From Acidimicrobiia bacterium (GTDB taxonomy: Bacteria; Actinomycetota; Acidimicrobiia; Acidimicrobiales; CAIXPF01), in contig WHTX01000014.1 of assembly GCA_009377505.1 (NCBI GenBank), positions 1 through 35,139 of the forward strand: DNA of 35,139 nucleotides, written 5' to 3'. Shown in pieces: positions 20,044 to 21,594 of the stretch (its first letter is position 1; every line of letters begins with the position of its first letter). The notes beneath the pieces are model-generated. The model had not been told where the DNA came from and did no database searches. It saw only the letters and a list, made by a program, of their open reading frames with translations. The translations under genes were made by a program, and so were the position numbers.

Positions 20044-21594
20044 TTGTTCATCGAGTATCTCGGTCATGCCGGTTTCACGGTCAGCCAAGGGAGCACGGTG
20101 CTGCTCATCGACCCCTGGCCGTCGCCCTCGGGGGCGTTCGACGGCGCGTGGTTCCAGCTGCCCTGCAACCACCACCTGGCGTCGGCGACGATCGCCCAGC
20201 TCACCGGGGCGCGCCATCGCCACATCTACGTCAGCCACGAGCACCAGGACCACTTCGACGCGGCGTTCCTGACCCGCCTCGTGCCACTGCAGCCGACCGT
20301 GCTGGTGCCTCGCTTTCGCGTTGCCGGCTTCGGCGACGCGCTGCGGTCGCTGGGTTTCGAGCAGGTGGTGGAGCTCGCGGACGAGGACATGGTCGAAGCG
20401 GGCGATCTGCGGCTTCGGCTGTTCGTCGATGACGGCGCCCTCAACCGCGACTCGGCGATCCTCGTAGACGATGGCCAGAGCCGCTTCCTCGACCTCAACG
20501 ACTGCAAGATCTACGACCGGATGCACCACATCCGGGAGCGCTTCGGCCCGGTCGACATCCTGGCTTGCCAGTTCTCCGGCGCCTCCTGGCACCCGGTGTG
20601 CTACGAGTACCCCGAGGCGGCCTACCGTCACGTCTCGCGCCGCAAGCGCCTCGGGAAGTTCCGCAGCGTGGGCGAGGCACTCGCCCTGCTGGGGCCCCGG
20701 CGCTACTTCCCCTCGGCCGGGCCGGCCTGCTTCCTCGACCCCGATCTGCTGGCGCTGAACTTCGAGGAGGAGGGCATCTTCCCGAGCAGCGCCGACATCG
20801 CCACCTTCCTGAGGAAGGGCGCAGTGGCGGCGGAGGTCGACGAGATCATGCCCGGTGATGTCTTCGACGCCGCGCTCGACTGCTTCACGGTGCGAGGACC
20901 GGTCCGCCTCACCGAGGTGATGAGGCGCCCCTACATCGAGGACTACGCCCGCCGGATGGCCACCACGGTCGAGCGGCTCAAGCGGACGTGCCCGCCGGCG
21001 ACCGCGGCCGAGATCCTCGACGGGCTGTTGGTCGCGCTCGCCGAGAAGCTCCAGCACTTCGCGCCCAGCAGCTCCCTCGCCCACGACCTCTACGTCGGGC
21101 TCTTCGAGCTGCCCGACCGCTTCGTCCACGTCGACCTCGGCCGGCGCTGTGCCGTGATGGCGAGCGCCCTGCCGGAGGACGGGTTCGACCGCGTCCTGCT
21201 CCCCGCCTGGCAGGTCGAACGGCTGCTCGACGGCGCCATTGGCTGGGCCGACCTGACGCTAACCTTCCGTGCCCGGATCCGTCGCGTCCCGGACCAGTAC
21301 AACACGCTGGTCAACGGCTTCATCGTGGCCGAGCCGCACGAGCTCGCCGACCTCGTGGCCCGGGTCGAGGCCTTCCGCAGCAGCGTCGAGCGGGTCGTAG
21401 TCGAGGTCGACGGCGCGCCCTACGAGATCAACCGCTCGTGCCCGCACCAGGGCGCCGACCTCAGCTACGGCTGGGAGGACGCCGGGCACTGGGTCTGCCC
21501 CCGGCACGGCTGGCGCTTCGACCTCGAGAGCGGCGGCCGCTGCCACATGTCGCCCGACACGGTCCATGCCCTGCGCGTCGACGCCGAAGGCTGA
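20044..21594 (+). CDS. MBL-fold hydrolase fused to a C-terminal Rieske [2Fe-2S] domain
   Basis: 516 residues. The N-terminal half is a metallo-β-lactamase fold of the UlaG/CMP-Neu5Ac-hydroxylase kind (IEYLGHAGFTV, LLIDPW, then HEHQDH at 65-70). The C-terminal ~80 residues are a Rieske domain: SCPHQGADL (Cys466, His468) and CPRHGWRFD (Cys485, His488). CMP-N-acetylneuraminate hydroxylase combines the same two folds in the opposite order, so this may be an oxygenase, but its substrate is unknown. A middle region of ~200 residues matches nothing I recognise. TTG at 20044 is the only plausible start: an in-frame TAG lies at 20023-20025. The ribosome site is weak (GGCGGT), consistent with the short leader from the TATAGT promoter. 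Confidence 0.85.
   Translation: MFIEYLGHAGFTVSQGSTVLLIDPWPSPSGAFDGAWFQLPCNHHLASATIAQLTGARHRHIYVSHEHQDHFDAAFLTRLVPLQPTVLVPRFRVAGFGDALRSLGFEQVVELADEDMVEAGDLRLRLFVDDGALNRDSAILVDDGQSRFLDLNDCKIYDRMHHIRERFGPVDILACQFSGASWHPVCYEYPEAAYRHVSRRKRLGKFRSVGEALALLGPRRYFPSAGPACFLDPDLLALNFEEEGIFPSSADIATFLRKGAVAAEVDEIMPGDVFDAALDCFTVRGPVRLTEVMRRPYIEDYARRMATTVERLKRTCPPATAAEILDGLLVALAEKLQHFAPSSSLAHDLYVGLFELPDRFVHVDLGRRCAVMASALPEDGFDRVLLPAWQVERLLDGAIGWADLTLTFRARIRRVPDQYNTLVNGFIVAEPHELADLVARVEAFRSSVERVVVEVDGAPYEINRSCPHQGADLSYGWEDAGHWVCPRHGWRFDLESGGRCHMSPDTVHALRVDAEG

Follow-up and report, generated by a model that had tools for sequence, protein, structure and literature searches.

The window, the whole 35,139-nucleotide stretch of Acidimicrobiia DNA that was analyzed, contains a gene whose product is probably a soluble hydroxylase that depends on O2 and turns the N-acetyl group of a UDP-amino sugar into N-glycolyl, with a Rieske cluster feeding an iron site in a metallo-β-lactamase (MBL) fold. 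The open reading frame (ORF) is intact and encodes 516 residues from a TTG start codon with which the starts of the homologs line up. Pfam detected a Rieske domain at residues 441 to 506 (E = 3e-10, above the cutoff), and Lactamase_B_2 (residues 20 to 180, E = 3e-5) and Lactamase_B_3 (residues 3 to 88, E = 1e-4) scored just below the cutoff. Both ligand motifs are complete (H65-E-H67-Q-D69-H70 and C466-P-H468-x16-C485-P-R-H488), and all 78 full-length homologs in our alignment retain H65, H67, D69, H70, D136, D153, C466, H468, C485, and H488. The original prediction of an MBL-Rieske fusion with two complete metal centers is therefore borne out. A chance fusion or an assembly artifact was ruled out because the identical architecture recurs across many phyla. 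The phage records searched gave no match to the protein.

Features of the gene at positions 20044 to 21594 of the window and coordinates of its Rieske-first homologs
Feature	Position	Strand	Basis or remark
MBL-middle-Rieske protein gene, 516 aa	20044..21594	+	Probable NamH-like hydroxylase, uncharacterized subfamily
MBL-fold (UlaG/CmlA-like) domain, residues 1 to ~225	20044..20718	+	Pfam; CmlA by sequence, CmlA/FrsH by fold
HEHQDH metal-binding motif (H65, H67, D69, H70)	20236..20253	+	Invariant in 78 full-length homologs
D136, invariant Asp	20449..20451	+	Homolog alignment
D153	20500..20502	+	Aligned with bridging Asp403 of CmlA
Middle domain, residues ~226 to 437, family specific	20719..21354	+	L125 profile alignment; high-confidence predicted fold
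Rieske [2Fe-2S] domain, residues ~438 to 510	21355..21573	+	Pfam PF00355, E = 3e-10
Rieske ligands C466xH468 ... C485xxH488	21439..21507	+	Invariant in 78 homologs
Rieske-first homologs	L125:5635-7470, L146:5001-6821, L147:2919-4733	+ (all)	

A canonical Rieske non-heme oxygenase was ruled out, as Pfam and NCBIfam found no mononuclear-iron domain of the Rieske oxygenase type and the catalytic part has an MBL fold. An AlphaFold model of the whole chain, the structure prediction that had been called for, was confident (pLDDT 93.4, pTM 0.92). The solved structures that best matched this model were those of CmlA and FrsH (TM ~0.35 of the query), and CmlA was also the top match in the PDB by sequence; no solved structure in the fold search spanned the entire MBL-middle-Rieske architecture, and a viral structure library returned only MBL-fold matches. 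CmlA and FrsH are MBL-fold diiron β-hydroxylases that share with the window protein the MBL fold, the HxHxDH motif, and a bridging Asp, but they lack a Rieske domain and have a different accessory domain. Glu377 and His443, two further CmlA ligands, have no clear or conserved counterparts in the sequence alignment of the window protein family, which leaves a CmlA-type diiron site no more than putative. From H70 to H468 the alignment also shows no conserved histidine in between, and the protein thus lacks the two later His ligands found in zinc-dependent MBL hydrolases; D136 could possibly replace the MBL motif 3 ligand. Together with the alignment of D153, these observations indicate that the MBL site matches neither the standard dizinc site of hydrolases nor, exactly, the site of CmlA.

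These ligands bear on whether the MBL domain might instead be a UlaG-type metal hydrolase in which the Rieske domain is merely regulatory. The MBL-fold matches of the window protein do include metal-dependent hydrolases, and the MBL ligands are kept in relatives that have no Rieske domain. Against this, the histidines that serve hydrolases as later ligands show no conservation here, all 78 full-length relatives retain every Rieske ligand, and NamH and CMAH, discussed below, are oxygenases. We consider a hydrolase most improbable.

The domain order proved to be that of a known enzyme, NamH (UDP-N-acetylmuramate hydroxylase), Rv3818 in M. tuberculosis and namH in M. smegmatis. The two proteins align over their full length with ~30 to 32% identity and have in common the MBL-middle-Rieske order, a length of ~515 residues, and all of the MBL and Rieske ligands. 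NamH has been described as "N-terminal UlaG and C-terminal Rieske" (PMC10050696). It hydroxylates UDP-MurNAc to UDP-MurNGlyc (PMC6378297), uses molecular oxygen to do so, and is possessed by Nocardia and Rhodococcus (PMC10234563); a functional namH is absent in M. leprae (PMC4995902). NamH thus gives this architecture a described family of known reaction (PMC10050696, PMC10234563), and the architecture cannot count as new: the domain architecture search recovered it in many phyla but also in print. At ~30% identity, transfer of the NamH activity to the window protein would be uncertain.

If the window protein were simply NamH, it would be expected to group with the NamH proteins. Instead, when 49 full-length proteins were compared in a careful maximum-likelihood tree, it fell in a clade of 16 (support, 100/100), outside another clade, also with 100/100 support, that contains the NamH proteins (Nocardia, Rhodococcus, Tsukamurella, and Mycobacteriaceae-like); a larger quick tree gave the same division. 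We named the NamH clade from its Nocardia and Rhodococcus members, with a Tsukamurella entry also named, and from one genus, very likely Mycobacterium, in which 387 of 396 genomes encode a member. Two of the closed genomes in this genus, both of 3.3 Mb, have no NamH-clade protein. The full-length homologs on Nocardia, Rhodococcus, and Tsukamurella records are ~30% identical to the window protein. On this evidence, NamH and the window protein are not orthologs. Its clade is apparently an undescribed, distinct subfamily, with no described member found in open-access papers. It extends patchily over eight phyla (Chlorobiota, Bacteroidota, Bacillota, Chloroflexota, Myxococcota, Pseudomonadota, Acidobacteriota, and Actinomycetota), and its rarity and patchiness within Acidimicrobiia suggest horizontal spread of the gene. 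Within the class, genome G292 and the named MAG L107 encode identical copies. Culturable relatives of the window protein's source include Pedobacter psychrophilus, with L086, and Paenibacillus rigui, with L087.

Could the window protein nevertheless function as NamH, hydroxylating UDP-MurNAc in an organism with N-glycolylated peptidoglycan? Its architecture and ligands are the same as those of NamH, NamH-clade proteins are frequent in Acidimicrobiia, and a search of the window genome showed no separate NamH copy. However, the two clades are separate, the genome G201 encodes both one window-clade protein and one NamH-like protein, and window-clade relatives adjoin polysaccharide genes rather than peptidoglycan genes. 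We therefore judge this function unlikely. The proposal of an uncharacterized oxygenase survives in part: the protein is most likely an oxygenase in a clade of its own, but it has the architecture of an enzyme with a known reaction.

NamH-clade proteins are common in Acidimicrobiia genomes (e.g., L003-L006 and L044-L053), and one occurs in a gammaproteobacterial metagenome-assembled genome (MAG) (L115). N-Glycolyl muramic acid in bacteria has been described as a feature of mycobacteria and their close relatives. The NamH-clade genes in Acidimicrobiia and L115 predict N-glycolylated muramic acid outside Mycobacteriales.

The original prediction drew a comparison with CMAH, which hydroxylates an N-acetyl methyl group. 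In feline CMAH the Rieske region lies at residues 21 to 94 (PMC4865243), whereas that of the window protein is C-terminal, and the order is reversed as predicted. Proteins with the CMAH order are encoded by a Bacteroidetes MAG (L125) and two IMG/VR contigs (L146 and L147), with the Rieske domain near residues 42 to 75 and the MBL motif near residues 173 to 191; unlike the window protein, they have an extra C-terminal stretch past the middle domain. In a profile alignment, window residues 5 to 428 matched residues 121 to 530 of L125 (probability, 99.9; E = 3e-32), and the window Rieske residues 462 to 506 matched L125 residues 38 to 77 (probability, 95.6; E = 1e-8). The ~200 residues between the two domains had been called unassigned, and indeed no Pfam or NCBIfam model matches them; the alignment nonetheless shows that Rieske-first proteins have this domain too, after their MBL domain. 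Judged from these alignments, there is one MBL-plus-middle core to which a Rieske module is attached C-terminally (NamH and the window protein), attached N-terminally (the CMAH order), or not attached at all; the CMAH order is represented in this comparison by the bacterial and viral proteins L125, L146, and L147. The Rieske-less form is represented by L007-L009 and by L002 in the window genome, which keep the MBL ligands and share the core with the window protein but lie far off in the tree. L002 (G000:C149:1423-2322) is a second, distant homolog in that genome.

A core and Rieske module homologous to those of CMAH-order proteins, together with strong matches to NeuB in some window-clade genomes, could point to an enzyme that, like CMAH, hydroxylates CMP-sialic acid or another CMP-nonulosonic acid. 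Neither the window genome (92% complete) nor G201 gave a NeuB match, however, the genomes that encode L086, L092, and L096 gave none either, and the position of the Rieske domain is unlike that in CMAH. The lack of a NeuB match makes a CMP-sialic acid substrate unlikely in the window organism, and we regard a CMAH-like role as very unlikely overall.

We examined the genes surrounding members of the window clade for clues to the substrate. In a Pfam scan of 128 neighbor proteins of 22 window-clade genes, we found 12 NAD-dependent (SDR) epimerases, 8 GT4 and 6 GT2 glycosyltransferases, and 3 UDP-sugar dehydrogenases, none of which ranked in the top 25 families for the 96 control neighbors taken from NamH-clade and distant MBL loci, a control set that is not phylogenetically matched to the window-clade loci. 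Next to L092 (Legionella gratiana), NCBIfam identified WecB above the cutoff. At three other loci the best matches fell below it: TviC, 34 bases downstream of L094; TviB, beside L096; and TviB and PseB, beside L102. WecB, TviC, TviB, and PseB handle UDP-N-acetylhexosamines or their uronates. L092, L094, and L096 belong to the Legionella/gammaproteobacterial branch of the clade. At about half of the window-clade loci, including those of myxobacteria and Pedobacter, a rough search found no sugar gene within 4 kb, a count that is circular for the loci that supplied its representatives, and we prefer the Pfam scans. The window gene likewise has no sugar gene among its flanking genes, which makes the inference of a sugar substrate uncertain in its case. 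Four viral contigs (L139-L142, IMG/VR) encode full-length MBL-middle-Rieske proteins beside genes for an SDR epimerase and/or a DegT aminotransferase.

On one side of the window gene are genes for two Peripla_BP_6 proteins and a GH15 protein; on the other are tRNA-Ser and genes for PemK, an FMO-like protein, Amidohydro_2, and MmgE/PrpD. The FMO-like and amidohydrolase genes, a luciferase-like gene also present in the neighborhood, and the status of CmlA and FrsH as the best solved matches would fit a CmlA-like hydroxylase or another oxygenase acting on a nonsugar substrate, such as an amino acid, an amine, or a natural product. Yet the full-length relatives of known or inferred role act on sugars, and there is no carrier-protein or nonribosomal peptide synthetase (NRPS) gene among the flanking genes; we consider such a substrate quite unlikely. 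As the original prediction had noted, no reductase or ferredoxin gene is found among the flanking genes. Cytochrome b5 and its reductase stimulate CMAH activity (PMC4819959), and an electron partner encoded elsewhere would therefore not be unusual for the window protein.

We favor an N-acetyl hydroxylase because of the architectural match to NamH, the core and module shared with proteins of the CMAH order, CmlA and FrsH as the closest structures, the missing hydrolase histidines, the sugar genes beside some relatives, and the lack of a NeuB match in the window genome. The substrate of such an enzyme would be a UDP-N-acetylhexosamine or a derivative. A reductase or ferredoxin encoded elsewhere would reduce the C-terminal Rieske cluster, which would pass electrons to a putative iron site in the MBL domain formed by H65, H67, D69, H70, D153, and perhaps D136; donation from the Rieske cluster to the MBL site is what would be expected of these domains. 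The iron site would then activate O2 and hydroxylate the acetyl methyl group, and the middle domain would probably bind the nucleotide sugar and dock the Rieske domain.

More broadly, we tentatively suggest that the window clade may be a widespread, so far unrecognized group of UDP-N-acetylhexosamine hydroxylases that provide N-glycolyl sugars for surface polysaccharides of bacteria belonging to at least eight phyla; viral contigs carry related genes next to sugar genes. If the subfamily acts on other sugars as NamH does on UDP-MurNAc, N-glycolyl modification would be far more widespread. Annotators could then give a name to a group whose members are at present labeled just "MBL fold metallo-hydrolase" or "Rieske domain-containing protein." A single core that carries its Rieske module at one end or the other is also a simple system in which to study electron delivery to an MBL-fold iron site.

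Three further features were observed near the window gene. ARAGORN called a tRNA-Tyr at 22470-22567 (+), antisense to the 3' end of the FMO-like gene (22430-24046), which may be a false call. The PemK-like toxin gene (21862-22278, -) lies near tRNA-Ser. Upstream, on the strand opposite the window gene, the two Peripla_BP_6 substrate-binding proteins are encoded by tandem paralogs (16287-17936 and 18084-19664, -).
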